Of a DNA stretch of 36,441 bases, positions 888 through 26,887 are shown piece after piece. Each line of letters opens with the position of its first letter. Position 1 is the first letter of the stretch. The stretch spans positions 1 to 36,441 of the forward strand of contig JAFLDE010000036.1 of NCBI GenBank assembly GCA_017302655.1, read 5' to 3'. The position numbers were made by a program, and so were the translations under genes. The notes beneath the pieces were generated by a model, which worked only from the letters and a program-made list of their open reading frames with translations, did not search any database and was not told where the DNA came from. Origin of the DNA: Burkholderiales bacterium (GTDB taxonomy: Bacteria > Pseudomonadota > Gammaproteobacteria > Burkholderiales > Burkholderiaceae_C).

Positions 888-933
888 TGGTGCCGGCAAG
901 AGGAGTCGAACCCCCGACCTTCGCATTACGAAT
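888..933 (-). tRNA. 3' half of the host tRNA-Thr(CGU), separated by the island (island left end)
   Basis: The minus strand carries the anticodon loop, variable loop, T arm, acceptor 3' strand (TGCCGGC) and an encoded ACCA, but no 5' half. Upstream, the sequence changes abruptly at the 13-bp core (921-933). The acceptor strand is an exact complement of GCCGGCA at the 5' half (26887 leftwards), not of the cargo tRNA (GCCGGTG). Joining 26887-26845 to 920-888 gives exactly 76 nt with CGT at positions 34-36, so the two pieces are halves of one gene. As it stands the 3' half has no D arm and no promoter of its own. Confidence 0.9.
921..933 (-). repeat. att core, left copy (13 bp)
   Basis: The minus-strand sequence ATTCGTAATGCGA covers the anticodon loop and the 3' side of the anticodon stem. 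The same 13 bp in the same orientation occurs at 26845-26857. The flanks differ outside these 13 bp, which defines the maximum crossover segment of the integrase. Confidence 0.9.
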
Positions 934-1051
934 CAGACCTTTCGTTTTGCTAAAGGGACCTGCGAACTCGTCGCTGGCATAGAGATCAACCACTTACCCG
1001 CATCAACCACGTCGCTTGCTTGTCCTGACGTATCCCGGCTGTGCCGACACA

Positions 1052-1072
1052 TTGTGCCAGCCGTGTGCCAGG
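1052..1072 (+). promoter_or_regulatory. Candidate integrase arm-type site, left arm
   Basis: Two TGTGCCA-containing half-sites 12 bp apart make a 21-bp block that matches 26756-26776 at 18 of 21 positions, in the same orientation. The blocks lie 119 bp and 69 bp from their respective cores, where arm-binding sites of a tyrosine integrase are expected. Protein binding is inferred. Confidence 0.45.
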
Positions 1073-1201
1073 CCAGTCGGTTTAGCGACCGCCTTCTTGG
1101 CGCCCGCGACGACCTGGCGCGGTAGCGGCCGGAGTACTCGGCTAAATCGCGGTAATGGATAAGCCAACCCCGAGGGGAGACTTTCATAGGCAAACGTTCC
1201 C

Positions 1202-1243
1202 GCCGGCATGAGTAGTCAAACCTCCGACCTTCGCATTGCGAGT
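1202..1243 (-). repeat. Decayed second copy of the tRNA-Thr 3'-half / att region
   Basis: These 42 bp align without gaps to the left end (892-933) with 36 identities. The core copy at 1231-1243 has two mismatches. The CCA end is absent. Similarity continues past the core to about 1310. It looks like the remnant of an older, related integration in the same tRNA gene. Confidence 0.75.
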
Positions 1244-1388
1244 CAAACCTATCGCTTTGCTGAGGCAGCCTCAGAGCGGGTCAGAGGTAGCGAGATCAAT
1301 CACTTACCTGACTGACCCGGCCACTGGCACCGGCCAGCTGCCCTTGGCCGAGCAAAAGTACTGAGACAGCACTGTCCGAGCGAACTGG

Positions 1389-2684
1389 CTATGCCGCCCG
1401 GCGGGCTCGCCCTGCTGGCCTAGCAGACGTTGGGGTGACTTCCCATTGCGAGCCCTTGAGGTCGATCAGCTGCTCTGGTCTGGCTTCAGCGTATGCCTTT
1501 TCGAGGCGGCCCTTGATCGCCGTCCAGTTGGCCTTGCAGAAGGAGTCGGAGTGCACGTCAATCGGCACAACGTTGTCGCCGCGATGCTCCAGGAGTTTCT
1601 TCAGCTTCGATGAGTGGATCCGGGCTTTGTGCCTTTGCCATGACATGCGAGCGTCTATTCCGATTGTGAGTAGCTCGGCGAGCACTGTTGGTCTGTCCAA
1701 CTCGCCCCCAGGCCAGTTGTCGACCAGTCCGCCTGCAAGGTAATGCTTCAGGAACGACTTGGCCTTCTTCGATAGATGCTTGATGTCAATCGGCCGCGGT
1801 GCAATCGTCCTCACGGGGTGGCCGTTTGGGAGAACGAGCAGGGGTCTTAGCGCACCTTTGAGGATCTTCCTGTACGTCCCCTTCGCATGTGCGTGCTCCC
1901 ACTGTTCCGGCTGGGTCAGGTTCAGCGAATCAAGTGCTTGCACCGAGAGCCGGACATCGATCCGGAGGATCTCAAGTGCGAGGCGGCGCATTCGCTTCTG
2001 AACATCGCCATTCCTGTAGATGGCATGTTTGTGCTTGGTCTTTTGGTACCACAGGGAGACGATGTCTTCCCCGTGGATGTATGCCGACCAGTTCGACTCC
2101 AGCTTCGCGGGTAAAAAGGTCCGGTTGTGGAGTCCGAGGTGTCGCGCCGTGTCGTACGCCCAGCGAACCATGTCCTCTACGCGCAGCTCTTCAAGTAGCC
2201 GCTGGAAGCAGAGCGTCACTTCGTAGTACTTCACATTAGCTAGGGTGAGCTTGTCCACGAGGTGACGCGGAACGCCACAGCGAATCAACTCGATGGACAC
2301 GGCCCAAAGAGCGACCTCACCTGCGCGATAGCCACTGAGCCCCATGGCAACGTTGTTGGCCACTGTGTACGAAGGGACGTTCAAGTCCACCTGAATGGCG
2401 ACAGGGAGCTGCTCGACGCGCCCGTTGCCCACTAGCACGGGTCCATGGATGAGGCGCATGACCGTACCGGTTCCAGACAGAGGGCTGATGTGCTCGCGCC
2501 CCGCGATCAAGTGTGAGCCCCACTTCTTCTTCCACCACTTGTCAGGGTCGTGAGGGGCCATATTGCGCATCGCCAAAAACTTTGCCAATGAGCAAGGCGT
2601 CTTTTTGGGGAAGCGCTCTTCGAGAGCGCGCCGCTCATCAGGCGGCATGTCAGGGAGGGTGGTGATCGCGCAGATCGAGTCCAT
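1389..2684 (-). CDS. Putative replication initiation protein, phage/plasmid gene II/X (Phage_CRI)-like
   Basis: A 431-aa ORF. The ATG at 2684 is preceded by a strong GGAAAGGA ribosome site about 8 nt upstream. I place it tentatively in the gene II/X family of rolling-circle replication proteins of filamentous phages. The central part has the family-like order of an N-x-P-S-x-x-V-x-x-N-N-V-x-x-G stretch, then a helical segment, then a short beta strand ending VTLCF, a charged W-x-x-x-Y region and an ILRIDVRL strand reminiscent of the family's 'vRfEaR' motif. I do not see a clear HUH motif, so function is inferred. It stands alone between the decayed att copy and the cargo tRNA. If correct, it suggests a past replicative or satellite-phage state of this end of the island. 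Otherwise it is an uncharacterised protein. Confidence 0.6.
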   Translation of the reverse strand: MDSICAITTLPDMPPDERRALEERFPKKTPCSLAKFLAMRNMAPHDPDKWWKKKWGSHLIAGREHISPLSGTGTVMRLIHGPVLVGNGRVEQLPVAIQVDLNVPSYTVANNVAMGLSGYRAGEVALWAVSIELIRCGVPRHLVDKLTLANVKYYEVTLCFQRLLEELRVEDMVRWAYDTARHLGLHNRTFLPAKLESNWSAYIHGEDIVSLWYQKTKHKHAIYRNGDVQKRMRRLALEILRIDVRLSVQALDSLNLTQPEQWEHAHAKGTYRKILKGALRPLLVLPNGHPVRTIAPRPIDIKHLSKKAKSFLKHYLAGGLVDNWPGGELDRPTVLAELLTIGIDARMSWQRHKARIHSSKLKKLLEHRGDNVVPIDVHSDSFCKANWTAIKGRLEKAYAEARPEQLIDLKGSQWEVTPTSARPAGRARRAA

Positions 2685-3365
2685 GGTCGATTCCTTTCCG
2701 ATTGGTTGAGGGCGATTCCTTCCACGTCGCTCAAGTCGCCTGGTGGATGAGGCTCAGACATTGAGTGGTCCTTGCCCCATCGACTTGGCTTTGAGCAATC
2801 AGGACGTGGCCCTGGAAATAGAGATAGCTCGTTGCCTTCACGCGGTACCTGCATTGCTGATCAGGTGCTAAGGCTTGGTAGGCCTGGGCGTGGGGGGAGT
2901 AACTAAGCTGATTGAAGCTATTACATAGAGCCGTTGCCGATCTGATGCCTGGTGCTTCAAGTGCTCCGAAACTTCCTTCTTCATGGGGCGTCTCGCTCGG
3001 CCCATGCGATCCAGTGCAGCACGCAGAGCAATGTCGACATCAAGAATCGCCATTTCTTGCCACTCGTTTGAACGAGTTCAAGTCTTGGCTTGACGATGGT
3101 TGGCCGCCCAAGTGACCTACCTGAAGAGCAACCTTGAGTGGTCTGTGCACCGACTCCACGGAGGCTGGGCGATCTGACCGCCACCGATCTGCGGAGGGCT
3201 GCTGCTTCGCTCGGGCTCGCACGGTGGCCTTTGACATGAGGCGGTGAAGGAATTGCGCGCTTTCCGTAGAAGAACGCTAGCGAGAGGCGACATCAGCAGG
3301 TCATGAGGTCTCGCGTTGCCTGGTGTATGATTTGAGGCTTCGTCAGACCCAGCGTCTGGTGGTTC
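2685..3365. other. Intergenic region between the rep-like gene and the cargo tRNA
   Basis: About 680 bp. Only short ORFs with poor start signals are present. The right part carries the probable promoter of the cargo tRNA: a TATGAT -10-like element at 3326-3331, 35 bp before the tRNA. No convincing -35 is seen. The region is less GC-biased than the flanking genes, as expected for non-coding acquired DNA. Confidence 0.4.
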
Positions 3366-3441
3366 GCCGGTGTAGCTCAGTTGGTAGAGCAGCGCATTCG
3401 TAATGCGAAGGTCGGGGGTTCGACTCCTCTCACCGGCACCA
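3366..3441 (+). tRNA. Intact tRNA-Thr(CGU) carried by the island
   Basis: A complete 76-nt cloverleaf with encoded CCA: acceptor GCCGGTG/CACCGGC, D arm GCTCAGTTGGTAGAGC, anticodon arm with CGT at 3399-3401 (positions 34-36), T loop TTCGACT. It reads ACG codons. It differs from the reconstructed host tRNA at only 4 of 76 positions, all in two compensatory base pairs of the acceptor stem, so both fold perfectly. It contains the full 13-bp att core (3396-3408), inverted relative to the island ends. It is followed by a terminator at 3468-3490. The obvious role is to replace the tRNA destroyed by integration. Confidence 0.97.
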
Positions 3442-3467
3442 AAATCTGAAGTCTGACAGTCACTTAG

Positions 3468-3490
3468 AGAGCCGCCGCCAGCGGCTCTTT
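3468..3490 (+). terminator. Intrinsic terminator downstream of the cargo tRNA-Thr
   Basis: AGAGCCGC and GCGGCTCT form an 8-bp perfect stem around a 5-nt loop and end in TTT, 27 nt after the tRNA CCA. Confidence 0.75.
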
Positions 3491-3791
3491 CAGTTTCTGG
3501 GCCTCGGTGGCACACACGGCACAGCGAAGCTTCCGCCCGAGCATCACGCCGTGGCGTCGCCGAGCTTGCTTAGTCGACCTTGTGGCCCCGCTCCCAGCCT
3601 GCTGCGCTGCGTCCTCGGCTATCCTTCGAATGCCGCTTTGCGGACCTGCTTTTCCTCCCTGAGCAGGAGCCTTGGCGATGACAGCTGCCATGGCTTTACA
3701 GCCCCGCATCAGCGGGGCTCTCTTTTTGGCGCCAGAGTGATCTTGGTCTGTCTTGCGTGTGGTCCTACAGTTGGCCGCAGGGAGGACCAGC
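3491..3791. other. Gap between two terminators and the next gene
   Basis: About 300 bp. A second strong terminator lies inside it (3700-3727). A minus-strand ORF (3464-3691, 75 aa) crosses both hairpins and is not convincing. No tRNA or recognisable RNA is seen, but the segment 3491-3699 is enclosed by two plus-strand terminators and could encode an unrecognised transcript. Confidence 0.35.
3700..3727 (+). terminator. Strong intrinsic terminator
   Basis: AGCCCCGC and GCGGGGCT form an 8-bp perfect stem with an ATCA tetraloop, followed by CTCTTTTT. No plus-strand gene that would use it was found other than the tRNA unit, which already has its own terminator. Confidence 0.8.
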
Positions 3792-4331
3792 ATGCTCAGA
3801 TGTGCAATGACCGGATTGCCGCTTCGCGACCCAGGCGACGGCATCTACGACGACGGCGAATGGATCAGTTGGGAGTGGATCAACGGGCAACTTCACAGGC
3901 AGGACCTGCAGAAGGAGTACCCGCACGTTGACCCTGAGTTGGCGGACTTGTTCGAGTCCCTGGTTGCCTTGGCCGACGAGTACCACCAGCGCACTGGCCG
4001 GTACCTTCAGATCTGGGGCGAACTTGGCGAGCTGTACGCAGAGATGAAGTACGGCATCAAGCGCCACCGCGCCCACACACCTGGCTCTGACGGCAAGCTC
4101 GGCAACGACTTTGTGGAGGTCAAGACGATCTCGCCAGAGAAGGGCGCCGACAAGGTCGAAGTGAAGCGCGAGGGGAACTTCAACAAGCTCCTCGTGGTGA
4201 AGATCGATGCTGACTTCAACTTCGAGTCCAAGATGATCGACCGCGCGATCCTCGGAAAGGGGGCGGGCAAAGTGGCCCGGGTTTCCTGGGGCTCAATGCC
4301 AGGGCATGCGGGCTCAGAGGAGCACACCTGA
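3792..4331 (+). CDS. Uncharacterised protein with a PD-(D/E)XK-like motif
   Basis: 179 aa from the ATG at 3792, chosen because GGGAGG lies 6 nt upstream; the longer frame start at 3753 lacks a ribosome site. The C-terminal half contains GSDGKLGNDFVEVKTIS, where a conserved D is followed about 10 residues later by E-V-K. This is the spacing seen in PD-(D/E)XK nuclease-like folds (compare the 'VEVK' of restriction and mobile-element nucleases, and DUF6998-type proteins). The N-terminal half is helical with acidic and aromatic residues. Its 3' end overlaps the convergent SRAP gene by 18 bp. Nuclease activity is inferred from one motif. It may be an accessory DNA-processing or defence protein. 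Confidence 0.7.
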   Translation: MLRCAMTGLPLRDPGDGIYDDGEWISWEWINGQLHRQDLQKEYPHVDPELADLFESLVALADEYHQRTGRYLQIWGELGELYAEMKYGIKRHRAHTPGSDGKLGNDFVEVKTISPEKGADKVEVKREGNFNKLLVVKIDADFNFESKMIDRAILGKGAGKVARVSWGSMPGHAGSEEHT

Positions 4332-5024: not shown

Positions 5025-5120
5025 GGGCCAACTGTACGAAGGCACTCTGAGATGCTGCCGGCGCGCACTCGTTCTCGCGGGTCCAGCCGCCCCATGCTGG
5101 CTTCACCGAGCCTGTCTCCA

Positions 5121-5609: not shown

Positions 5610-6263
5610 ATGAAGGATCGCGAACTGGCATTGCTCCTGCAGCGTGGCAATGCCCTGCACAGAACGCTGACCGAGGCGCTTCCCCGTTTCGTCGATGGCG
5701 GCGTTGATGATCGCGGCACCGTTGCCATCGATGCAGGGAAGGTCGCGCTTGAGCATGCTGCAGCCTTCCGCATGATGGTTGCCGCGGGCATTGAAGTCTC
5801 AAGACAGCCGTTGTTGCGCCTGCAAGTTCAGGCGGTGGTGCGAGGTGCCTGGGCTCTCTGGTGCGCTTCTGAGCGGCAGGCCGAGGCCGTAACCAGCTCC
5901 GTTGTCTGCGGCAGTCCCTTGACCAGCCGCGAACTACCTTCCTCGCTGAAGCAACAGCAGGCTGTGCTCGCAAGCGAACGGCTGCCCGACGACTTCCGCC
6001 ATGTCCTCGCCGAGCTGCCGACCAGCTTTTGGGGTGCCGAGTCGGAGTCGAGCTTTCACAACCTCGGGTACTACAACGCAGAGCGCTCGTTCGAAGCCGA
6101 TGCGGACTTCCTGCGGTACTCGGTCCAGTTCTCCAATCAGGTGCTGATGCTTGCCTTCAAGCTGATCCTGATCGGCGATGGCAAGCTGGAGCTGCTGGAG
6201 GCTGTCGACCGGGCCGGGCTCACTTCGCAGCCCGAGGTGGCGGCCGCAGCCAGCCTGCATTGA
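5610..6263 (+). CDS. Uncharacterised protein inserted between umuD and umuC
   Basis: 217 aa; the ATG at 5610 follows a GGAGA site by 5 nt. The protein is largely alpha-helical, with no signal peptide and no motif I can name. Features are an [16 protein letters not shown] helix followed by R[14 protein letters not shown], and a later [18 protein letters not shown] hydrophobic helix. It resembles small DUF6988-type helical proteins, but I cannot confirm that. It lies 36 bp after umuD and 4 bp before umuC, so it belongs to the same SOS-regulated transcript and could modulate Pol V. Most umuDC operons have the two genes adjacent, so its presence is unusual. Confidence 0.8.
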
Positions 6264-6267
6264 TGCC

Positions 6268-9768: not shown

Positions 9769-9895
9769 CGGCCTTGCCAACTTCACCCCACCAAAGCCGC
9801 GCCAGTCGCGGCTTTCGTTCAACTGCGCAACGCGCGTAAAACACATATTTGCGCGCGTGCCGAACCGGGCCGGAAGCGGCCCAGCGAGCACCACG

Positions 9896-10843
9896 ATGAC
9901 CGACAAGAAGAGGGAGAAGTTCGCTCCCAAAGCTCCCATTCCTCCCGAGCCTCCGCATCGAACCTTCACGGCTGAAGAGCTGAAGTTGGCTGCCAAGGCT
10001 GAGTCCACACGCACGGCCTACGCCAAGGACATCACCTACTACCGGCGGATGGGATACCCGCTGCCAGCAACGGCGGCCGATGCCCTGCGCTGGTTGGTCG
10101 CAGTCGCCCCAAGGCTGAAGCCGGCAACCATCCAGCGCCGGATGATTGCCCTGCATGCGTGGCACAAGGATCGTGGGTTGCCGTCGCCCATCGACAAGGA
10201 GGTGAAGACGGCGTTCGCTGGCCTCGGGCGCACCGTGGGCCTGGCGCAGCGCGCGGTGAAGCCGCTGATGCGTGACGACCTGCTCGCCGTGTTGATGGCA
10301 GTCCAAGCGCAGGAGCCGGTTCGAGCCGCGCGGGACACCGCGTTGCTGTTGTTCCTGTTCTGCGGCGCGCTGCGCAGGCAGTCGCTGGTGCAGCTCACGC
10401 TTGAGGATCTGACCTTCCATGAGCTGGGCGTGGATGTGCTTCTGCGGCGAAGCAAGACCGATCAAGAGGGCCGCGGCCTGGTCGTGAGCATTCCATTCGC
10501 CAATGGCAGGCAATGCCCTGTGGCTGCGATCCAGCGCTGGTGTGAGCTCGCCGGGATTCGGTCGGGCTACCTGTTCCGGCGCGTCACGCGAAGCGGCGCG
10601 GTGGGCGACACGCGCCTGGACATCAGCTCTGTGGCCAGGGTGGTCAAGGCGGCCGTCGCGCGTGCTGGCCTCGATCCGGCGCACTACTCGTCGCACTCTG
10701 GCCGAGCCGGATTCGTGTCAACGGCCGGCATGGCGCAAATGCCACTCGCTGAGATCGCTCAGGTCACAAAGCATCGAGGCCTGCAGTCCCTCCAGCGCTA
10801 CTTGCGTGTTGTCGAGCAGCGCAGAGTTCGGTCGCTACTTTGA
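9896..10843 (+). CDS. Second tyrosine recombinase (XerC/D-like, phage integrase family)
   Basis: 315 aa from the ATG at 9896; the longer frame uses a GTG at 9857 with no added homology. It has a SAM-like N-terminal core-binding domain (residues about 35-110) and a catalytic domain with all key residues: R160 (FCGALRRQSL), K187 (RRSKTDQEG), H267-x-x-R270 (SSHSGRAGF), H293 (TKHRGL) and nucleophile Y302 (LQRYLRV). It should be active. It lacks the arm-binding N-terminal domain of the integrase at 25509-26663. It sits in the middle of the island, far from the att sites, so it is either the integrase of a nested older element or serves internal rearrangement. No att site of its own was identified. 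Confidence 0.9.
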   Translation: MTDKKREKFAPKAPIPPEPPHRTFTAEELKLAAKAESTRTAYAKDITYYRRMGYPLPATAADALRWLVAVAPRLKPATIQRRMIALHAWHKDRGLPSPIDKEVKTAFAGLGRTVGLAQRAVKPLMRDDLLAVLMAVQAQEPVRAARDTALLLFLFCGALRRQSLVQLTLEDLTFHELGVDVLLRRSKTDQEGRGLVVSIPFANGRQCPVAAIQRWCELAGIRSGYLFRRVTRSGAVGDTRLDISSVARVVKAAVARAGLDPAHYSSHSGRAGFVSTAGMAQMPLAEIAQVTKHRGLQSLQRYLRVVEQRRVRSLL

Positions 10844-12696: not shown

Positions 12697-15600
12697 TCAG
12701 AGCGTTAGCTCATCCGCAATCATCTCGGCCTGTTTGAGAACGGTCTCTGTCGCCAGCAACTGCATGTCAGGCGGGTAGCCGTACTGCCGCAGGGTGCGCT
12801 TGACCATCACCTTGAGCTTCGCCCGGACGTTCTCCTTGATCGTCCAGTCGATGCTGGCGTTCTCGCGCACCCGCTGTGTCAGCACCACCGCCAGCTCGCG
12901 CAGCTTGTCCTTCTGCATCAGCTCGCGGGCGCTGTCGTTGTTGGCGACTGCCGTGTAGAAGGCGTACTCGAAGGGGGTCAAGCCCAGTTGCTCAGCCTCG
13001 CTGTCTGCCGCCACGATGTCCTTGCTGACCTTGATCAGCTCTTCCATCACCTCGGCCGCCGTCAGGATCTTGTTCTGGTACTTGCGGATGGCCGCTTCCA
13101 GCATGTCCATCAGCGAGCGGCTCTGAACTAGGTTGCGCTTGGCGCGCACCTTTAGTTCGTCGGTCAGCAGTTTCTTCAGCACCTCCAGCGCCACGTTCTT
13201 GTGCTGGTAGCCCTTCAGCTCGGCCAGGAACTCGTCGGACAGGATAGAGATGTCCGGCTTCTTGATGCCGGCGGCGTCGAAGACATCGATCACCTGCTCA
13301 GACACCAGGGCCTTGTCGATCACCTGCCGGATGGTGGTCTCCAGGTCCTCGGTGCTACGCCCGCCCGCCGCGCCCAGGCTGTCGAACTTGACCAGGCGCG
13401 CCTTCACGGCCTGGAAGAAGCCCACCTCGTCCTTCACGTCCATCGCCTGCTCATGGGGAACGGCAATGGCAAAGGCCTGGGACAGCGCAATCACCTCGTT
13501 GATGTAGCGCCGGCGTCCGTCATCCAGGCCCAGGATGTGCTCCTCGGCTTGGAGGATCAGCGACAGCTTCTCGCCGGTGTCGGCCTCAAAAAAGCGCTCG
13601 TAGGCAAAGCCATGGAAGAGGCCCGACACGACCTCGATCTTCTCTAGCAGCAGGGCAACTGCTTGTTCCTGCGCCAACGTGGGATCGCCCTTGCCTCCGG
13701 CGTCCGAGTAGAACGAAAGCGCCTCTTTCAGGTCGGCCGCAATGCCCAGGTAGTCCACCACCAGGCCGCCCGGCTTGTCCTTGTGCACGCGGTTCACTCG
13801 CGCGATTGCTTGCATCAGGTTGTGGCCCTTCATCGGCTTGTCGATGTAGAGCGTGTGCATGCTCGGTGCGTCAAAGCCAGTCAGCCACATGTCCCGCACG
13901 ATCACCAGTTGGAGCGGGTCGGTGTCGTCCTTCATGCGCTCGGCCAGGACCTTGCGCTGCTCTTTGGTGGTGTGGTGCTGCGCCAGCTTCGGCCCGTCGC
14001 TGCTGGAGGCCGTCATCACCACCTTCATCACACCTTTGCGCAGGTCGTCGTCGTGCCACTGCGGCCTCAGCTCCTTGATGGCCCCATAAAGGTCTGCCGC
14101 AATGCGCCGAGACATGCTGACCACCATCGCCTTGCCGGCAAACACTTCTTGCCGGGCCTCGAAGTGCGCCACGATGTCGCGGGCGATGTTCTGCACGCGC
14201 GGCTCGCTGCCAATAAGAGCCTCCATCTTGGTCCACTTGGCCTTGGCTTTCTGCGTCTCCGTCAGCTCGTCCTGCTCAAGCTCCTCGTCCAGCTCAGCCA
14301 CCATCTGCCGGCCCTCGTCGCTCAGGCCAACTTTGGCCAAGCGGCTCTCGTAATAGATGCGAACCGTAGCCCCGTCTTCCACGGCCTGCGCAATGTCGTA
14401 GATGTCCACGTAGTTGCCGAAAACGGCCGGGGTGTTGACGTCGGCCTTCTCAATTGGCGTTCCAGTGAAGCCCAGGTATGTGGCGTGGGGGAGGGCGTCG
14501 CGCAGGTACTTGGCGAAGCCATAGACCAGCTTCTTGCCCACCACATTGCCTGCCTCGTCCTTCACATCCACCAGGCGGGCTTCGAAGCCGTACTGCGTGC
14601 GGTGCGCTTCGTCGGCAATCACCACGATGTTCCGCCGTGCCGACAGCTCGTCATGCACATTGCCCGTCTCGGGCTGGAACTTCTGCACCGTGGAGAACAC
14701 CACTCCACCTGCCGCCACCTTGAGCAAGGCCTTCAAATGGTCGCGGTTCTCCGCTTGCACCGGCTCCTGACGCAGCAGTTGCCGTGAGGCCGCAAAGGTG
14801 TCGAAGAGCTGATCGTCCAGATCGTTGCGGTCGGTCAGCACCAGCACCGTGGGGTTGTCCATCGCCAGCACGATCTTGCCGGTGTAGAACACCATGGACA
14901 GGGATTTGCCCGAGCCCTGGGTGTGCCACACCACGCCAGCCTTCCGGTCGCCCTTGGGTTGGTCCCTCACGCTTGGCACGCCATAGCTGGCGGCAGCCTC
15001 GCGCACTTCCATCGGGGCGCTCAGGTCCGCCGCTCGCAGCGTCGATTCCACAGCCGCATTGACCGCGTAGTACTGGTGATAGGCCGCCAGCTTCTTCACC
15101 GTGCTGATGGTCACCTGCCCAGTTTCCGGATCGACCTTGCGCGCCTTCTCGAAGACGATGAAGTGCCGCAGCAGGTCCAGCAGCGTCGCCGGGGCCAACA
15201 TGCCCAAGATCAAGGTCTCCAACTGGCTCACTAGGTGCGAAGCCTCGGCCTTGCCGTCCGCGCTCTTCCAGGCCATGAAGCGGGACATGCCCGCTGAGAT
15301 CGAGCCCGCCCGCGCCTCCAGCCCGTCCGAGATCACCGAGAACGCGTGGCTGTGGAACAGCTGCGGCAGCACCTGCTTGTACGTCTCGATCTGCTGATAG
15401 GCCGTCTTCAGCGTGGCGTTCTCGCTGCCGGCGTTCTTCAGCTCCACCACGACCAGCGGCAGGCCGTTGACGAACAGCACCACGTCCAGACGCTTGCGGT
15501 CTGAATGCTGCTCCCCATCCCGGGCCACAGTGAATTGATTCACCACCAGGAAGTCGTTGGCCTCAGGCCGTGCGAAGTCGATCAACCAGACCCGCTCGCC

Positions 15601-15924
15601 GCGCGTCTGCCCGTCCTTCTGCACCTCAACCGTCACGCCCTCGGTCATCCAGCGGTGGACATGCTCATTGGCATCCAGTAGCTCGGGCGAGGCGTAGCGC
15701 TGCACCTCCTTCAAGGCCTGCTCCACCACGACGGCAGGCAAGCGATGGTTGATGCGACGCACCGCCTGTTCCATCCGTGCAGTCAAAAGCACCTCGCCGT
15801 AACTGGCCCGCTCAGGGCTCTCGCCATCGGGGGCAATCACCGAGCCGTGCAGGTAGCGGTAGCCCTGGCGCTCCAGCAGCTTGATGGCAAAGGCTTCGAT
15901 GGCCGATTCAGTCAGATAGCTCAT
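12697..15924 (-). CDS. hsdR: Type I restriction enzyme, endonuclease/translocase subunit HsdR
   Basis: 1075 aa, normal family length. N-terminal PD-(D/E)XK nuclease: D147 (KRLDVVLFVNG), then E161-x-K163 (VVVELKNAG) and a QxxxY-like YQQIETY. SF2 motor: Walker A TQGSGKS (335-341), DEAH (438-441), GFTGTP motif III, and motif VI near QAIARVNR. The C-terminal helical region binds the methylase core. HsdR cuts unmethylated DNA after ATP-driven translocation, as part of the HsdR2M2S complex. Its ATG overlaps the stop of the Abi-C gene (ATGA), so it is the last gene of the hsdM-orf-hsdS-abi-hsdR operon. All motifs are intact. Confidence 0.97.
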   Translation of the reverse strand: MSYLTESAIEAFAIKLLERQGYRYLHGSVIAPDGESPERASYGEVLLTARMEQAVRRINHRLPAVVVEQALKEVQRYASPELLDANEHVHRWMTEGVTVEVQKDGQTRGERVWLIDFARPEANDFLVVNQFTVARDGEQHSDRKRLDVVLFVNGLPLVVVELKNAGSENATLKTAYQQIETYKQVLPQLFHSHAFSVISDGLEARAGSISAGMSRFMAWKSADGKAEASHLVSQLETLILGMLAPATLLDLLRHFIVFEKARKVDPETGQVTISTVKKLAAYHQYYAVNAAVESTLRAADLSAPMEVREAAASYGVPSVRDQPKGDRKAGVVWHTQGSGKSLSMVFYTGKIVLAMDNPTVLVLTDRNDLDDQLFDTFAASRQLLRQEPVQAENRDHLKALLKVAAGGVVFSTVQKFQPETGNVHDELSARRNIVVIADEAHRTQYGFEARLVDVKDEAGNVVGKKLVYGFAKYLRDALPHATYLGFTGTPIEKADVNTPAVFGNYVDIYDIAQAVEDGATVRIYYESRLAKVGLSDEGRQMVAELDEELEQDELTETQKAKAKWTKMEALIGSEPRVQNIARDIVAHFEARQEVFAGKAMVVSMSRRIAADLYGAIKELRPQWHDDDLRKGVMKVVMTASSSDGPKLAQHHTTKEQRKVLAERMKDDTDPLQLVIVRDMWLTGFDAPSMHTLYIDKPMKGHNLMQAIARVNRVHKDKPGGLVVDYLGIAADLKEALSFYSDAGGKGDPTLAQEQAVALLLEKIEVVSGLFHGFAYERFFEADTGEKLSLILQAEEHILGLDDGRRRYINEVIALSQAFAIAVPHEQAMDVKDEVGFFQAVKARLVKFDSLGAAGGRSTEDLETTIRQVIDKALVSEQVIDVFDAAGIKKPDISILSDEFLAELKGYQHKNVALEVLKKLLTDELKVRAKRNLVQSRSLMDMLEAAIRKYQNKILTAAEVMEELIKVSKDIVAADSEAEQLGLTPFEYAFYTAVANNDSARELMQKDKLRELAVVLTQRVRENASIDWTIKENVRAKLKVMVKRTLRQYGYPPDMQLLATETVLKQAEMIADELTL

Positions 15925-16604
15925 TCACCCTCCCCAGGGTCTTCGTCAGCGGACGACTCGGCGTAGGCCTTGCATTCGGCAGCGTAGGCCTGCGCATCCA
16001 CGGCGAACAGGACTTCACTGGCCGGGTAGGAGTAAGCGTCTCCCATGACAACGTCGCCAATGGTCTCGTCCCAGTAGTCGTTGAATTCGCTGTTGTCTTC
16101 ATAGCGCAGCGGCTCGGCGGCCTCAGCAGCCGCTTCAACCGGGGCACCAGCAATCTGCCGTGTTTCAAACGCCCGGATCAAAAACACCGCCACCACCAGC
16201 GTGCTGTCGATTAGGAACTCGCGGGTCAGCAGATCGACCTTGTCGTTGCGGTTCCGTAGTTCTTCCAAGGGCTTGCCGTGCGAGGTGGGGCTGATCTGGT
16301 TGCGCAGCTCTCCGACCTGCTGGCCGATGGTGGCCAAAGCACTGGACACCTGGCGGACCATGTCATCACCCGAATAGCCCAGGGCGACGAACGCCCTCTT
16401 CAGCACCCCATTGATGGAGCTACTCGGCTCTAGAGCGACGCCCTTGGATTCGCAGATCTGCTTGCCGATGCTCTCTAGCAGGGACTTTGCGTTCTCAAGT
16501 GCTGTGCTGAAGTCGGTTTCGAGGTAGGCCTCCATGCGATCCACCAAGAACCGCAACTCCTGCCAGCGCCCGTACTGCTCCAGCGTGTCCCGGAGCTTTT
16601 GCAT
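15921..16604 (-). CDS. Abortive-infection C-terminal (Abi-C)-like protein within the hsd operon
   Basis: 227 aa. Residues about 30-130 match the Abi-C pattern: a helix FSTALENAKSLLESIGKQIC, an L-K-R helix, a helix with IGQQVGELRNQ, and the S-HG-K element (ISPTSHGKP). In Abi-C proteins the late R-N...HG residues are reminiscent of HEPN-type RNases, although here R-N and H-G are close together in one loop. The last 50 residues are very acidic. The start overlaps the hsdS stop (TGATG) and its stop overlaps the hsdR start (ATGA), so it is translationally coupled into the type I system. Probably a back-up defence activity; this role is inferred. Confidence 0.82.
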   Translation of the reverse strand: MQKLRDTLEQYGRWQELRFLVDRMEAYLETDFSTALENAKSLLESIGKQICESKGVALEPSSSINGVLKRAFVALGYSGDDMVRQVSSALATIGQQVGELRNQISPTSHGKPLEELRNRNDKVDLLTREFLIDSTLVVAVFLIRAFETRQIAGAPVEAAAEAAEPLRYEDNSEFNDYWDETIGDVVMGDAYSYPASEVLFAVDAQAYAAECKAYAESSADEDPGEGE

Positions 16605-17749
16605 CAGCAGGCCACCCGCACTTCGCCACTCATTAATTTGGGCAAAAGCGTGTCTCTCAGGGAAGTCAATTGCGCAGCTTGGTCTTCGTTGTGCTTGATC
16701 TTCTTGAACATCGGCCAGCAGGTGGCTTCGAAACGCTCGATCAGGTCGCGCGGTGGAAGCAGAGTGGCCTGCGCATGCACATGGTTGCGGTTCAGCGTAG
16801 GAACGGCCGAACCCGCATTGAAGGCGGGCAGATCCAACGTCTTCAATGTGAAGTAGGCGAAGAGCGGCGTCGCGAGCTTGAACTCCTTGACGTACAGAGA
16901 GGTATTGAGCGGCCAGAAGTCCTCTTGCACCAAAAACACATTGCCGATCAATCCGCTTCGTCCCGTCGAAACGCCAGGCGCAGCGACCTTGTGCTCGTCA
17001 TGCCAGCCGCTCACGCCGCTCGAACTGATGATGGGGTACGGCCCTTCACGCCGATCTTGGAGTGGCAAGTCGTACCCCCTCTGGAGCACGAGCAAGTCCT
17101 CAACGACTCCTTCGGGCCATGAGGCGGCTTCGTCGCCTTCAAACCATTGCCTAAAGAGCGCTTCGGCCATGGCTTCCAGGCATTGGTTCTGACGGCGAAG
17201 TAGGTCGATCTTGTTGTCTAGGCTACCAAGCACATCAGAAATCGCTCTCTGCTCGTCGGGGCTAGGAATGCTGAAAACGAGGTTCTTGAGTTGCCCCAGA
17301 TTCAATGTCGGCTGAACCGTGTCATTCGTGTTGCCGTACATCTGGAATACAACATCGTCCAGCTTGAAGCAGTACTTGATGAACCGCGTGTCGAACTCTG
17401 GCTTGATTCGCGCAACGCTTATCGCCCGTGCCACGTTCCACCCTTTCAGCGTAACGGGCACGATCGCGCACTCCCCAACCGTACCAACGACAGTGACTAG
17501 CAGTTCGCCGCCAACCAGGCGAGTTCGAACGTACTGGGCTTCAACGTCAGCCGCGACTCGCAGCACATCGCGAGTGTCGATCTGACCGTTGCGGACGTTG
17601 TTGACCCTCAGTACGGGAACAGAGTTCCTCTCCGTGTGCGCTCCAGGCTGGACGATTCCGTACGAGATGGCTCCATCGATCAATACGTCGGTGAACCGGT
17701 AGTGCGACCAACCTGGCGGAAGGGCTGTATCTTGGACACTGTGGGTCAT
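16604..17749 (-). CDS. hsdS: Type I restriction-modification specificity subunit HsdS
   Basis: 381 aa, with two target-recognition domains. TRD1 starts LPPGWSHYRFTDVL. The central conserved helix is SPDEQRAISDVLGSLDNKID followed by RQNQCLEAMAEALFRQWF. TRD2 follows, with a GYDLPLQDRREGPYPIISSSG opening and the final IERFEATCWPMFKKI helix. HsdS sets the bipartite DNA target of both the methylase and the endonuclease; the target cannot be read from sequence alone. A GGGGA site lies 9 nt before the ATG, inside the upstream 42-aa ORF, and its ATG overlaps that ORF's TGA. Full length, no frameshift. Confidence 0.95.
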   Translation of the reverse strand: MTHSVQDTALPPGWSHYRFTDVLIDGAISYGIVQPGAHTERNSVPVLRVNNVRNGQIDTRDVLRVAADVEAQYVRTRLVGGELLVTVVGTVGECAIVPVTLKGWNVARAISVARIKPEFDTRFIKYCFKLDDVVFQMYGNTNDTVQPTLNLGQLKNLVFSIPSPDEQRAISDVLGSLDNKIDLLRRQNQCLEAMAEALFRQWFEGDEAASWPEGVVEDLLVLQRGYDLPLQDRREGPYPIISSSGVSGWHDEHKVAAPGVSTGRSGLIGNVFLVQEDFWPLNTSLYVKEFKLATPLFAYFTLKTLDLPAFNAGSAVPTLNRNHVHAQATLLPPRDLIERFEATCWPMFKKIKHNEDQAAQLTSLRDTLLPKLMSGEVRVAC

Positions 17750-17874
17750 GCTCGGTTGTCCCCACGGGCTCTGCGCGCCAGTCCAGCATTCAGCTGAACT
17801 ATCTGTTCACCGATGTCGGGACGAAGTGTTTTGGCGGCTAGGGCGAGTGCCGGCGTGGGCAGGCTTTCGCTCAC
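17746..17874 (-). CDS. 42-aa ORF coupled between hsdM and hsdS
   Basis: A GTG at 17874 overlaps the hsdM stop (GTGA) and its TGA overlaps the hsdS ATG (ATGA), so the frame exactly fills the 121-bp gap. AAGG lies 7 nt before the GTG. The product starts [20 protein letters not shown] and ends in a basic, hydrophilic tail ([10 protein letters not shown]). It is predicted helical with no known domain. Stop-start overlap at both ends is typical of translationally coupled genes, but a 42-codon frame can also arise by chance, or be a relic of a longer gene. No homolog is recalled. Confidence 0.5.
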
Positions 17875-19415
17875 AGCTTCACCTTGGCGAGGTTCGCAGC
17901 AATGACGGCATTCAGGTGCGCCTCCTCCAGAAGTTGAGCATCGAACTCCGCTTTCAGCGCGGCAAAGCGCTCTGCGAAGTTGAAGTCTTCGTCCTCGTCT
18001 GGCAGGCCGACATAGCGGCCAGGGGTGAGCACGTGGTCCAGCTCGGCCACGCGGGCCAGGGGCACCGAGGCACAGTAGCCTTTCTCGTCGGCATAGCCGG
18101 GTTCGCCGGTGCGCCAAGCGTGGTACGTGCCGGCGATCTTGCTGATGTCCTCGGGGCTCAGCTCGCGGGTACGGCGGTTGATGAGATGGCCGAGGTTGCG
18201 GGCATCGATGAAAAGAATTTCGCCATTGCGCGGGTGAGCGTTCACGCGTGCCCGGTTCATGAACCACAAGCAGGCGGGGATCTGTGTGTTCAGGAACAGT
18301 TTGGCCGGCAGGTTGACGATGCAGTCGATGAGATTGCCCTCGGCAATCAGCGCCTTGCGGATATCACCTTCGCCGCCACTCTTGCCGGTGAGCGAGCCTT
18401 TGGCGAGCACCACCCCAGCGCGTCCGCTAGGGGAGAGGTGGTGCAGGAAGTGCTGCAACCACGCGAAGTTGGCATTGCCCACGGGCGGCGCGCCGTACTT
18501 CCAGCGTCCATCCTTGCGCAGCAGCTCGCCGCTCCAGTCGCTGACATTGAAGGGCGGGTTGGCGATGATGAAGTCGGCCTTCAGGTCCTTGTGGGCGTCG
18601 TTGAGGAACGAGCCCTCGGTGTTCCACTTGACTTGAGAGGAGTCGATGCCGCGGATGGCGAGGTTCATGCGCGCCAGACGCCAGGTGGTCTGGTTGCTCT
18701 CCTGGCCGTAGATGGAGATGTCCTTGACCTGGCCTTGGTGCGACTGCACGAAGCGCTCGGACTGCACGAACATTCCGCCCGACCCGCAGCAAGGGTCGAA
18801 GACACGGCCCTTGTAGGGCTCCAGCATCGCTACCAGCAGCTCTACGATAGAGCGAGGCGTGTAGAACTGGCCGCCTTGTTTGCCCTCCGCTAGCGCGAAC
18901 TCGCCGAGGAAATACTCGAAGACGTGGCCGAGCACGTCGCGGCTGCGGGCCTGGGCGTCACCAAGGGCAATGTTTCCGATCAGCGCCATCAGACCGCCCA
19001 GGCTCAGCGGATCGAGGTTCTGGCGGGAGAAGACCTTGGGCAGCACGCCCTTGAGCAAGGGGTTCTCGCGCTCGATGGCGTCCATCGCTTCGTCGATGAA
19101 TCCGCCAATGTCTGGCTGGGTGGCCTGGGCGAGCAGGTAGGCCCAGCGGGCCTCGGGTGGGACGAAGAAGACGTTCTCGGCCGTGTACTCGTCCTTGTCT
19201 TCGGGGTCTGCGCCTTCGTACTGGCCTTCGCCAGCCTTCAACTTGGCGTAAACCTCCTCGAAGGAGTCGGAGATGTACTTCAGGAAGATGAGCCCGAGAA
19301 CAACGTGCTTGTACTCAGCGGCATCAATGTTCTTGCGGAGCTTGTCGGCGGCTTTCCAAAGCTGCTTTTCCAGCGGTTCTTCTTGAGCGGCTTTTTCAGC
19401 CTTTGTTCTTGCCAT
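17871..19415 (-). CDS. hsdM: Type I restriction-modification DNA methyltransferase subunit HsdM
   Basis: 514 aa. It has an N-terminal HsdM helical domain ([20 protein letters not shown]) and an N6-adenine methyltransferase domain with the SAM motif [12 protein letters not shown] (206-216) and catalytic motif IV NPPF (286-289, in [13 protein letters not shown]). It methylates adenine in the target set by HsdS, protecting host DNA from HsdR. The ATG at 19415 starts with [10 protein letters not shown]; an AAGGGA element is about 12 nt upstream. It is the first gene of the operon, 239 bp downstream of an XRE controller-like gene on the same strand. Complete, with all motifs. Confidence 0.97.
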
Positions 19416-22437: not shown

Positions 22438-22593
22438 TATTGGCCGCAACATCGAGGGAGCGCTTGTCCAAGGCTGTTCAGGGGCAGATTGAGGGCATGC
22501 ATGCGTCCGCCGAGAGCATGGAAGCTCCGCCGCACGTCTGAACATCCGCGTTTTCTGGATGCTCGTTTTCGGCAAAGTTTTTGCCGTCGCTGG

Positions 22594-22620: not shown

Positions 22621-22720
22621 TCAAGTGCCGGCCGAGGGGGCAATTTGCTGGTGCTGCGATCGGTCCCAGCGCCCTCAAGTGTTGAGGCCCGCAGGTCGAC
22701 GGCAGAGATTGGAGTTCACC

Positions 22721-23832: not shown

Positions 23833-23885
23833 GCGACGACGGGGCGGACTAGCTGCCCTTGGCGATGGCTAGCTACTCAAGGAAA

Positions 23886-23921
23886 GGCGGCGCAGTTCAC
23901 AAGTGGGCTGCGCCGCCATTT
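23886..23921. terminator. Bidirectional terminator between convergent genes
   Basis: GGCGGCGCAG and CTGCGCCGCC form a perfect 10-bp stem with a 12-nt loop. T-rich tails follow on the plus strand (ATTTCGTTT) and, more weakly, on the minus strand (TTTCCTT). Confidence 0.7.
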
Positions 23922-23982
23922 CGTTTGGCTCCCGTTGGGATTGCAAGGAAATGGCAACTTCTCGATGTAGTGACGGGGCTTC

Positions 23983-24345
23983 TTACGGCGGGGTGAAGTC
24001 AGAGGTTTCGGCGGAACAACGCGCTGCAAGGACTTGGCAGACAGCGGCAAGGTCGCCCAGCTCGCCGAGAAGGTGGCCCAGCGCTTCGACGCTGTCGGCG
24101 CCAATGCTTCCTTCCTCCACGGCTGTCCCGCACTGGGACAGCAAGTGACCGATGGCGCCAACCCCTCGGGCCACGACGGCGGCAACCGTGCTTGCGTCGT
24201 CCCCGAGTCGCAGCAACAAGTGAGGGTCAGCCGCCCGGTAGTCGATCTGGCCGGCAGATTCGGGTAGTCGGGGGAGGGCGCCAAGAAGCCCCCGAAGGGG
24301 CCGCTCGGCATCCGTGCGATGGCTCGGTGCAGAGCTGCTGATCAT
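23983..24345 (-). CDS. Uncharacterised helical protein
   Basis: 120 aa. The last 70 residues form two or three amphipathic helices (AVVARGVGAIGHLLSQC and SVEALGHLLGELGDLAAVC), reminiscent in style of small DUF3077/DUF6124-type proteins; this is a weak guess. The start at 24345 lies 13 bp after the stop of the upstream gene on the same strand, so the two are co-transcribed. The ribosome site is poor. Confidence 0.55.
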   Translation of the reverse strand: MISSSAPSHRTDAERPLRGLLGALPRLPESAGQIDYRAADPHLLLRLGDDASTVAAVVARGVGAIGHLLSQCGTAVEEGSIGADSVEALGHLLGELGDLAAVCQVLAARCSAETSDFTPP

Positions 24346-24358
24346 GGCCTGCGCCGAG

Positions 24359-24868
24359 TCACTTCGGCTTGTTCCCGGTGCCCGGTCGACGGCTGATCTC
24401 GCGATACCAGCTGGGCGAAAGCTTCAGGCCGCTGGTGTCCGTGGTGATCTGTCGCTTGGGATCAACCCAGTTGCCCACATCGATGACATAGCCGAAGGGT
24501 TGGACGCCGGCGAGTCCCTTCACGTTGTGATGGACGACATGGCGGCCGATTTCGGTCTCCGGGTTGAAGTCGACACACAGGATGGCTACATCGGGCAGCT
24601 GCGGTCGGCAGGTGAGTTCGATCCAGTCCGACGCCATCAGGTCCGACAGGTTCCACAGCAGCTTCTGCACCATCGCGTCGTCGACCCAGAACGGGCCGTT
24701 GGCCGGCAGCCCGAGCAGGTGCGCCGCTGCCTTGACGTTGGCCAGCGTCTTGCCGGTCAGCGTTGCGATGCAGGCGAGCTGGTCGTCGTGCGTGCCCTCC
24801 ATCGGCACACGGGTGAACGGGGACTTGAAGCCGGCAGGCAGCTTGCCGTCATTCAGAATACTCGACAT
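24359..24868 (-). CDS. Conserved mobile-element accessory protein of unknown function
   Basis: 169 aa; ATG at 24868 with a CGGAG site 7 nt upstream. It contains a long conserved-looking opening (GFKSPFTRVPMEGTHDDQLA, CIATLTGKTLANVKAAA), then PDVAILCVDFNPETEIGRHV and a C-terminal SPSWYREI. I recognise this protein type from proteobacterial integrative elements and plasmids, where it has no assigned function. It shows no catalytic motif I can name. It lies between the excisionase-like gene and the 120-aa gene in what looks like a minus-strand unit. The 77-bp gap upstream contains the small palindrome ACTCG-ACC-CGAGT, a possible operator. Confidence 0.75.
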   Translation of the reverse strand: MSSILNDGKLPAGFKSPFTRVPMEGTHDDQLACIATLTGKTLANVKAAAHLLGLPANGPFWVDDAMVQKLLWNLSDLMASDWIELTCRPQLPDVAILCVDFNPETEIGRHVVHHNVKGLAGVQPFGYVIDVGNWVDPKRQITTDTSGLKLSPSWYREISRRPGTGNKPK

Positions 24869-24945
24869 GGATAATCTCCGAGGTTAAATACAAACCCGGC
24901 ATTGAGTTTGCTTTTTAATACTACTCGGGTCGAGTTTTTGACTGG

Positions 24946-25419
24946 CTATTGCAGTTGGCTGCCCTCGCTTTCCAGCCAATCAAGGTACTTATTTTTCTCT
25001 ATGAATACACGCCTAAAACCAGAGGGGCGTACTACGCATTTTGCAAATCTGCTCAGTGAGTAAGGTACGGCTTCTGGGTATCGAACTGCAGCGGCAGATC
25101 TAAAAATCAAGTGCCTGAGCGCGCTTTCGGTCAGCGGGCCCAGTGCAGCAGCTTCTGCGACCGTCAACAGACCGCGATCTGCACTTGGAGCAGCGGTGCG
25201 TGCGATGTCAGCTGGTGCTCTGCGGGGTGCCTGGTCGCCTCCACCGCTTCGCATTGATCCCTGAGCCTTATCAGCGCAAAAGTCCTCGGCACAGCGGCCG
25301 TTGGTCTTGAACAGGCGCCACATAAACGCATCTTCCAGTAGTTTTCCAATGTCTGAGTTCATGACTTGGTAGGTCCTTGTTTCGATGTTTCGTCTGGGGT
25401 TTTTTAACAATTCACGCAT
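24946..25419 (-). CDS. Putative excisionase / recombination directionality factor (HTH)
   Basis: 157 aa from the ATG at 25419 (purine-rich AGAGAG just upstream); the frame could also start at a TTG (25440) or an ATG (25362). The C-terminal 75 residues begin RGLLTVAEAAALGPLTESAL, followed by RHLIFRS and end FIEKNKYLDWLESEGS. This is the layout of MerR-like/AlpA-type DNA-binding domains used as excisionases. It lies 90 bp downstream of the integrase gene on the same strand. The N-terminal half has no known domain. A role in controlling excision is inferred from fold and position. Confidence 0.7.
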   Translation of the reverse strand: MRELLKNPRRNIETRTYQVMNSDIGKLLEDAFMWRLFKTNGRCAEDFCADKAQGSMRSGGGDQAPRRAPADIARTAAPSADRGLLTVAEAAALGPLTESALRHLIFRSAAAVRYPEAVPYSLSRFAKCVVRPSGFRRVFIEKNKYLDWLESEGSQLQ

Positions 25420-25508
25420 GACTCTCTCTAGAATAACCAACTTCGACTAATGTGGTTGCACCTGCAGGTTGGATACTGAGTTCGGAACCGCTTGGTAGCG
25501 TGTCGCAT

Positions 25509-26663
25509 TTACCTAGTGCCGGCCGCTGTGTCGGTGCCGTTGAAGCCAATCGGGCTGGAACTCAGCCTTCCGACGACCCCCACCAGGTGTTCTGAGCTGA
25601 GATGGCTGTAGCGCTTCACCATGGCAAGCGTTCGGTGCCCCAGGACCTCCGCAATCTCTCTGAGGGTGCACCCCTGCATCGCAAGGTAGCTCGCAGTCGT
25701 GTGGCGGATGTCGTGGAATCGAAAGTCTGGAATGCCTGCGCGTCTGAGCGCCGTCGCCCAACTCCGCTTGAAATCAAGGGGCTGTTGGTCGTCGGTGGAC
25801 CCCGGGAAGATCAACTGGTCTAGCAGTTCTCGAGGTGGCTCAAGGCTGTCGCCGGGCAGCAGCGACATCAGCGCAGAGAAGCCCCTTCCCATGAGCGGAA
25901 TGGAGCGCGTATCGCCGTTCTTCGTTCGGGTCAGCCGGAGGAAGCAGTAGGTTCTACCTGGCGAGTTGGGCTGCTCGGACGTGGGCCACCTGACGTCTGC
26001 CCACCGAAGCTTGAGGAGTTCTCCCTTGCGCATGCCGGTTGACAGGGCAATCTCAAACAGCGCTGGCAGCACCCGGTTGTCTGACACGGCCAGCGCTTCG
26101 CGTAGTGCTGCAATCTCCGCCGGTGTCAGGTATCGCTCGCGTTCGTTCCGAACCTTGGGCTTGGACACCATCTCCAGCGGCGATCTGGAAAGCCATTGCC
26201 ACTCCCTGACCGCCGTGTTGAACGCGTGTGAGAGCACAGCGAGGTAGCGCACGACGGTCGCAGGCGCCCGCAGCTTTTGCTTCTTACGCCCGAAGGGTGT
26301 GGCGCTCAGTTCATCGCGCGCTTTGGCAATGACAGAGGGTGTTAGGTCTGACAGGGCGTGGTGCCCGATCTTCGCGATCCACCAGTCAAGCTGCGGACCC
26401 TGATCCTGTTTCCGCTGCGGTTTGTGAACCGCGAGGATCTCAGACTTGTACCGGAGCAGCAGGTCTCGAACGGTACGACCTCGGGCGCTCAGTTCGGGAA
26501 GGAAGGTGCCAAGTTGCATCTCCGACTCGACCTTTTGCGCCCACATGCGGGCGGCGGTGAGGGAGTAAAACGACTTGTTCCTTGATGGGAAGCCGCGCCT
26601 GCGGATCTGGACTTGATACGTCCTCTTCCCGCCCCTATTTAGTCGCTCACGAATCGCAGCCAT
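25509..26663 (-). CDS. int: Tyrosine integrase of the island
   Basis: 384 aa. The ATG at 26663 is preceded by GGAGG 7 nt upstream; upstream in-frame codons add nothing family-like. Domains: N-terminal arm-binding (residues 1-60, KRTYQVQIRRRGFPSRNKSF), SAM-like core-binding (65-160), and catalytic (175-360) with R212 (STGMRKGEL), K248 (RTKNGDT), H317-x-x-R320 (FHDIRHT), H343 (LGHRTL) and Y352 (KRYSHL). All catalytic residues are present. It lies 181 bp from the right att core and reads away from it, as usual for tRNA-targeting islands. The split tRNA-Thr promoter outside the island reads directly into this gene. Confidence 0.95.
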   Translation of the reverse strand: MAAIRERLNRGGKRTYQVQIRRRGFPSRNKSFYSLTAARMWAQKVESEMQLGTFLPELSARGRTVRDLLLRYKSEILAVHKPQRKQDQGPQLDWWIAKIGHHALSDLTPSVIAKARDELSATPFGRKKQKLRAPATVVRYLAVLSHAFNTAVREWQWLSRSPLEMVSKPKVRNERERYLTPAEIAALREALAVSDNRVLPALFEIALSTGMRKGELLKLRWADVRWPTSEQPNSPGRTYCFLRLTRTKNGDTRSIPLMGRGFSALMSLLPGDSLEPPRELLDQLIFPGSTDDQQPLDFKRSWATALRRAGIPDFRFHDIRHTTASYLAMQGCTLREIAEVLGHRTLAMVKRYSHLSSEHLVGVVGRLSSSPIGFNGTDTAAGTR

Positions 26664-26755
26664 CCATGCCTCCGGCCACCAGCACGTCCGCTGGCGGGAA
26701 GAGAGCATCATGGTGTGCTCTGTGAGTCTCTAATTGTCCTGAGCAGTCGGTGGCG

Positions 26756-26776
26756 TTGTGCCACCGCTGTGCCAGG
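26756..26776 (+). promoter_or_regulatory. Candidate integrase arm-type site, right arm
   Basis: A 21-bp block with two TGTGCCA-type half-sites, matching 1052-1072 at 18 of 21 positions in the same orientation, 69 bp from the right core. It lies between the integrase start and the core, where P-arm sites are expected. Binding is inferred. Confidence 0.45.
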
Positions 26777-26844
26777 GGAACCAAACTTCGCTTGCTGCCG
26801 ACGCTAAGCTGTTGATTTAGCAGACCATCATGATGTGGTGCGCA

Positions 26845-26887
26845 TCGCATTACGAATGCGCTGCTCTACCAACTGAGCTATGCCGGC
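26845..26887 (-). tRNA. 5' half of the split tRNA-Thr(CGU) with right att core (26845-26857)
   Basis: The minus strand reads GCCGGCA (acceptor), a standard D arm, then the anticodon arm through ATTCGTAATGCGA, and then diverges into island sequence, which lacks a variable loop, T arm and acceptor 3' strand. Its acceptor pairs perfectly only with the 3' half at 888-933. It contributes 43 of the 76 nt of the reconstituted gene. In this state it cannot yield a functional tRNA. Confidence 0.9.

Follow-up and report, generated by a model that had tools for sequence, protein, structure and literature searches.

tRNA-dependent lysogeny has been described in actinobacteriophages, where it was proven with mutants and where the tRNA concerned is tRNA-Lys, -Ile2 or -Leu (Guerrero-Bustamante and Hatfull, 2024; PMC10865867). 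There, the common core of the positive cases (its Table 2) is of 8–17 bp and is unable to rebuild the tRNA, and the prevalence of such systems outside actinobacteriophages is called an open matter in the discussion. In two strains of Sinorhizobium meliloti, tRNA-Leu(UAG) is inactivated by the integration of prophages resembling the Mesorhizobium phage vB_MloP_Lo5R7ANS, which are accompanied by a substitute tRNA (PMC11476347; PMC12429752). For tRNA-targeted islands, the rule given in the Islander work is that the island restores the tRNA gene (PMC4383910). We describe here a 36,441-nucleotide (nt) stretch of a Burkholderiales bacterium (the window; genome G000), in which a host tRNA-Thr(CGU) gene is interrupted by an island carrying a complete tRNA-Thr(CGU) of its own. 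Our interpretation, which we consider likely from the sequence comparisons below, is that this integrative island splits the host gene and supplies its own copy while integrated. The same design is found in three other genomes (G186, G401 and G516), which belong to other genera and, for G516, to another family.

The islands have in common with the actinobacteriophage systems a tyrosine integrase, an attachment site (attB) in a host tRNA gene, a short core and a cognate tRNA on the element, as well as restoring and non-restoring relatives side by side. They differ in lacking phage genes among the open reading frames (ORFs) tested, in bacterial order, in their target, tRNA-Thr(CGU), and in being known from sequence alone. 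As no phage genes were recognized among that part of the ORFs, the island is not classed as a member of tRNA-dependent lysogeny. The rhizobial prophages, with their inactivated target tRNA and substitute tRNA gene, provide a proteobacterial precedent; unlike the islands here, they are prophages located at tRNA-Leu, and the accessible reports describe no integrase clade or island family. Islander islands share the tyrosine integrase, the tRNA target and the anticodon-centred site (Islander type A), whereas in our case neither end restores the tRNA gene. In the Lactobacillus johnsonii prophage Lj965, the tRNA is not rebuilt and a cognate tRNA is present on the prophage (cited in the discussion of PMC10865867). 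Lj965 is, unlike the islands here, a prophage. Lactobacillus johnsonii belongs to another phylum than the present host. A literature search, at title and abstract level and with subscription journals mostly out of reach, found no non-phage island of this design. The mechanism is not new in kind, since it matches the known tRNA-dependent lysogeny; it is the vehicle (islands with defence genes), the host order and the target that differ. The split-and-replace arrangement is genuine, occurs more than once and is well accounted for by a mechanism already known, operating here in a setting that is new.

The host gene is interrupted in its anticodon stem-loop, and all its parts lie on the reverse strand. 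The 5' half (26845–26887, 43 nt) stands unrestored at the integrase-proximal junction, at the same place as the 5' halves of G186, G401 and G516, and the 3' half (888–920) is displaced to the distal end, where the terminator-like hairpin of the host gene (843–870) is still present, as it is in the sister species G004 and G005. The crossover region in the anticodon stem-loop corresponds to the core ATTCGTAATGCGA, found in an integrase-proximal copy (26845–26857) and a distal copy (921–933), both on the reverse strand. This 13-nt core is too short for rebuilding the tRNA gene in which the site lies. An earlier note on this DNA had claimed that the halves fit exactly (30 + 13 + 33 = 76 nt) and that the host gene is destroyed, neither end being restored. 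Both claims hold: the rejoined halves (43 + 33 = 76 nt) are identical, at 76/76 positions, to the intact tRNA-Thr(CGT) of two of the five sister species examined (G003 and G005, among G001–G005), and ARAGORN calls no tRNA at either island end, the single complete tRNA of the window being a tRNA-Thr(CGT) inside the island. Rfam gives 30.1 bits at the integrase-proximal end (26796–26887; cut-off 29) versus 67.4 for the internal gene, to which the halves are linked by two inverted repeats, one 50 nt long (96%) and the other 43 nt (95%). When up to 3 mismatches are allowed, the 13-nt core by itself occurs 7 times in the window for 4.8 expected, which is not beyond chance, and it is therefore not relied on alone. 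The same note had attributed a promoter to the 5' half and none to the 3' half, which can only be presumed. By eye, a -10-like TAGAAT is seen at the 5' half, the five sister species having TATAAT, CATAAT, TAGAAT (two of them) and TATACT, whereas a consensus scan found no sigma-70-like site at either half or at the internal gene. Three features are additional to those of the note: a degenerate second 3' half (1241–1202), a second tyrosine recombinase (9857–10843) and an intact tRNA-Thr(CGT) on contig C8.

The complete internal tRNA-Thr(CGU) (3366–3441, forward strand; ARAGORN), which had been described from the start as having a different acceptor stem, does have one: GCCGGTG/CACCGGC, versus GCCGGCA/TGCCGGC in the host gene. 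It differs from the joined halves at 4 positions and is identical, at 76/76, to the native gene of the sister species G001 and G004. A cognate tRNA is likewise carried by the elements of G186, G401 and G516. As the internal genes of G401 and G186 agree with the host gene of the window or of G401 at 59–62 of 76 positions only, and that of G516 is 84% identical to its own joined halves, they are not copies made by insertion. The full core is kept in the internal genes of the window, G401 and G186, and G516 has two changes inside the 10-nt core. In the window, the core of the internal tRNA (3396–3408) is inverted relative to that of the split gene (26845–26857), which would in principle allow the integrase to invert the island. 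A match to the Rfam family anti-hemB (RF02837; 50.3 bits, cut-off 49.5) lies some 200 nt beyond the internal tRNA, at 3643–3727 on the forward strand.

The predicted empty site, an intact gene joining both flanks, is found in the sister species G004. Upstream of its intact tRNA-Thr lies the kinase-like gene of window 27142–29844 (70% DNA identity), and the downstream DNA is 88% like window 748–933, terminator-like hairpin included. Both flanks surround the intact tRNA there, so that in one sister species of the five they form a single locus. The downstream side only is common to G005 and the window (86% over 806–933) and the upstream side only to G002 (69%); neither window flank was found in G001 and G003 at the search depth used. 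Just beyond the tRNA terminator, the window contains 12 exact tandem copies of CATGGGCCG (707–814), and a similar run is present at the same place in G004.

Other islands with an internal tRNA-Thr had also been suggested as something to look for, and each of the three that were found contains one beside an unrestored 5' half. In G401, the 5' half (C1:3113151–3113190), the internal tRNA-Thr(CGT) (C1:3116512–3116587) and the 3' half (C1:3147140–3147185) are all present, and the rejoined halves match the intact G352 gene at 76/76 positions. G516 contains a much smaller version of about 7 kb, with its 5' half from C2:219572, its internal gene at C2:226235–226310 and its 3' half at C2:226561–226606. 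For G186, the 5' half (C12:72969–73008) and the internal tRNA-Thr(CGT) (C12:76323–76398) are seen, the distal end lying beyond the contig. The core is of 13 nt in the window, 10 nt in G401 and 11 nt in G516, and the gene upstream in both G401 and G186 is a class 1 fructose-bisphosphatase. No other intact tRNA-Thr(CGT) was found in G186, G401 and G516, the weaker matches listed being all tRNA-Lys, -Phe or -His. At the distal end of the G401 island (L169, ~3147100–3147185), TATAAT and then GCCGGAG precede the core, and base pairing between GCCGGAG and the acceptor strand in the displaced 3' half is conceivable; this could be due to chance, or to a promoter reading outward or, after excision, into int. 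In both the G401 and G186 islands, the end of int is overlapped by the gene of a 507–508 aa protein of unknown family (L168:3516–5039 and L170:3334–4860), 72% identical between the two.

The integrase of the window (int1, 25509–26711, reverse strand, 400 aa; PF00589, 1.3e-22) is a tyrosine integrase adjoining the attachment site (att) at 26845. Its relatives were taken from: (i) a search of 399 genomes of the family with int1 (E up to 1e-40), which matched 10 of them including G000, (ii) a search of 399 genomes of the order with a profile of three integrases (E up to 1e-60), which matched 16 including G000, and (iii) GTDB contigs, giving two more, from a Chlamydiia and a Thiocystis metagenome-assembled genome. 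The DNA before the integrase gene was inspected for the 31 integrases thus examined (window 1, family 9, order 19, contigs 2). Twenty-two lie beside an intact tRNA gene, specific for Thr, Met, Asn, Phe or Lys. In 2 cases (G304 and G607a) the integrase is next to a bare 3' half, and 3 are unclear (G771, G746 and G607b); the remaining 4 (window, G186, G401 and G516) are splitters, in which a tRNA-Thr(CGT) 5' half runs into foreign DNA. The label "restoring" was given to the 22 because their tRNA is whole, the displaced fragment having been sought in G352 and G304 only and found in both.

All four splitting integrases group in a single clade (support 99/98). One change on the tree explains the split label, as it does in 98% of 200 bootstrap trees, whereas none of 500 shuffles does as well. 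The sisters of the splitters, with weak support (82/60), are G304 and G352, which are relatives at tRNA-Thr(CGT); the G369 and Chlamydiia rows are on long branches and of uncertain placement, and the Thiocystis row is truncated (255 aa). An extra cognate tRNA is present in 4/4 splitters versus 1/7 neighbourhoods of non-splitters, these numbers being small and the control neighbourhoods being stretches of 10–19 kb each rather than whole islands. The G352 island, covered between the distal 3' half and the tRNA by the L171 and L130 stretches, contains the att tRNA only. In IMG/VR, no relative was found with the window integrase, and an alignment of four integrases yielded a single distant relative (38%), for which no tRNA was called. 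With the G401 integrase as query, the phage match listed first is 29% identical; with the window integrase as query, the plasmid match listed first is at 39%.

The DNA itself shows that the host gene is broken, that the site is empty in a sister species, that the halves fit exactly and that an internal gene is present, and the design recurs in three other genomes whose integrases belong to the same clade. The following sequence of events is proposed. The integrase of the island (region 26844–921) would act on the host tRNA-Thr(CGU) gene at its anticodon stem-loop and recombine it there with a short attP core, 13 nt being shared; the complete tRNA-Thr(CGU) of the island would supply the lost tRNA during integration, and precise excision would rejoin the halves. 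This supposes that the internal tRNA is expressed and charged, that it covers for the loss, that the integrase acts at the 13-nt core and that the island is still mobile. Disruption followed by rescue is supported mainly by its recurrence in four islands with related integrases.

Several observations weigh against this proposal. An intact third tRNA-Thr(CGT), identical to the rejoined halves, is present in G000 (C8:12312–12237), and given this copy the internal gene may be redundant there. A tRNA-Thr(UGU) is also present in G000 (C128). Because tRNA-Thr(UGU) may read ACG by wobble, the loss of the host gene is not to be assumed lethal. Furthermore, the internal gene, where it bears the core (window, G401 and G186), could itself be a target of the integrase, although that of G516 may be a poor one because of the two changes inside its core. 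Finally, the non-splitter G383 (L131) has a second cognate tRNA: its tRNA-Asn(GTT) genes (5824–5899 and 10431–10506), with an integrase relative between them, are identical at 76/76, the second lying 4.5 kb further and being followed by a hairpin. Being identical, the two copies are more reminiscent of a duplication of the att gene, or of native genes in tandem, than of a divergent, foreign replacement. The G383 element is perhaps one that duplicates its whole target gene.

The intact C8 copy is also the starting point of two alternatives. The first is that of a population mixture or rearrangement, C8 and the window being two states of one locus, between which the locus would switch, and the host gene being intact in part of the culture; we regard it as unlikely. 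The C8 tRNA is located 17 nt from the contig end, and these 17 nt together with the first 43 nt of the gene are exactly the 60 nt of window 26904–26845, including the 17 upstream nt, which are common to C8 and the window and are not shared with the sister species. Beyond them the 3' flank of C8 differs; it contains a ATCAATGGGTTAGC hairpin and resembles, by eye, the sequence after the intact tRNA in several relatives. A comparable pair of contig ends exists at a tRNA-Pro(GGG) (C85 and C188), with exactly 127 shared nt. However, C8 was rejected as a simple excised site, as its 3' flank is not the left flank of the window, and no homologue of int1, int2 (the second recombinase of the island) or the G401 integrase is found on it (E 1e-5). 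The overlap of 60 nt also differs from the 127 nt seen elsewhere in the assembly (C23, C94 and C164 with the window interior; C85 with C188), so that it is not the usual branch of the assembler, and an assembly overlap of that type was rejected. C8 is part of the core chromosome, since it has the only lgt of the genome, and for the same reason contamination is unlikely. The contig ends at the tRNA-Pro(GGG), C85 (L115) 1–127 and C188 (L116) 15917–16043, contain the same tRNA and differ after the common 127 nt, one having a plain terminator-like hairpin and the other an element-like TTCAACGGGTTAGC hairpin; they may represent another tRNA-targeted element in two states.

Alternatively, the island could merely have broken one of two host copies of tRNA-Thr(CGU), the internal tRNA being neutral cargo and the C8 gene the one that matters. 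The intact C8 copy is in favour of this, but three islands of the same clade carry a cognate tRNA in genomes where no other intact copy was found, and only a single full-length match to tRNA-Thr(CGT) was obtained in every one of the five sister species (the weaker rows are all tRNA-Lys or -Phe, and in the L215 stretch also tRNA-Gly), so that two host copies would be unusual in the genus and a second one would be particular to G000; we judge this reading unlikely. Finally, an ordinary tRNA-restoring island damaged at its restored end is very improbable: although 22/31 related integrases lie beside an intact tRNA and the degenerate 3' half at 1241–1202 shows that such decay occurs, no 3' half follows the core at the integrase-proximal end, the splitters are one clade, and simple damage was rejected because the three other clade members (G186, G401 and G516) have the same end without a 3' half, with int and arm-like motifs in place.

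Replacement of the host tRNA by that of the island remains the likely reading, with different consequences for different hosts. On paper, the C8 gene is the second native tRNA-Thr(CGU) that the earlier note had itself named as evidence against its view. Of the disruption-and-rescue strategy that it had put forward, the arrangement stands, since tRNA-Thr(CGT) is split by four islands whose integrases are related, and an internal copy is present in every one of them; the dependence of the host does not stand for G000, where the C8 gene, identical to the rejoined halves, leaves it unsupported and the case for it weak. Dependence is plausible in G186, G401 and G516, where the host tRNA is, as far as searched, absent elsewhere. 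The island cannot trap its host through excision, as precise excision should regenerate the host gene; only deletions removing the internal tRNA would be penalized.

More generally, we lean slightly towards the view that one integrase clade gave up rebuilding its target and that non-phage islands live by swapping the host tRNA-Thr(CGU) for their own. If this is true, the only intact tRNA-Thr(CGU) of some hosts is island-borne, and a host tRNA has in effect been horizontally replaced; such islands could shrink, as in G516, but would have to keep the tRNA. A phage strategy would also be extended, in another bacterial order, to chromosomal islands bearing defence genes, and the number of tRNA genes counted in such genomes would be due in part to mobile elements. 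Because it is placed on one branch of the integrase tree, the switch from "restore" to "replace" is open to study. Island finders demanding a restored tRNA would probably overlook such elements.

The ends of the island contain putative integrase arm sites. At the integrase-proximal end (26757–26816, reverse strand), these are ATCAACAGCTTA (26805–26816) and CTGGCACA-N4-TGGCACA (26757–26775). The ATCAACAGCTTA-type motif has 4 matches in the window versus 0.52 expected, one of which (26953–26964) is outside the island, and the CTGGCACA-N4-TGGCACA pair has 2 (26757–26775 and 1053–1071) versus 0.09 expected; similar arm-like motifs are seen by eye after the att site in relatives. At the distal end, two att-like copies, 892–998 and 1202–1308, are 76% alike, with ATCAACCACTTA and ATCAATCACTTA at matching places (985–996 and 1295–1306). 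The inner one (1202–1308, reverse strand), made of the degenerate tRNA 3' half and the adjoining arm site, appears to be an older att copy, and the segment 921–1201 (reverse strand), with arm-like sites at 985–996 and 1053–1071, is probably the remnant of an older related element. As the outer halves are intact and the inner half is worn, the host gene seems to have been split recently.

A second tyrosine recombinase, int2 (9857–10843, forward strand, 328 aa), has homologues in the G401, G516, G304 and G352 islands (40–64%) and no match in the sequence retrieved near the integrases at tRNA-Asn and tRNA-Met; it is possibly a companion recombinase of the tRNA-Thr group. The cargo includes a type I restriction-modification system (12697–19415, reverse strand), composed of HsdR (12697–15924), Abi_C (15921–16604), HsdS (16604–17749) and HsdM (17871–19415), as well as an IMS-type polymerase, a NERD protein and an HTH-IrrE protein matching the PADLOC RmrA models. 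Searches with part of the ORFs revealed no sign of a temperate phage: 10 island ORFs gave only integrases and unknowns in PHROGs, and no phage structural family was recognized by Pfam among 20 ORFs of the window, of which 15 belong to the island. Outside the island, window 479–609 is a mobile or repeated element of G000, 127-nt parts of which recur at the ends of C23 and C94 (479–605) and of C164 (483–609).

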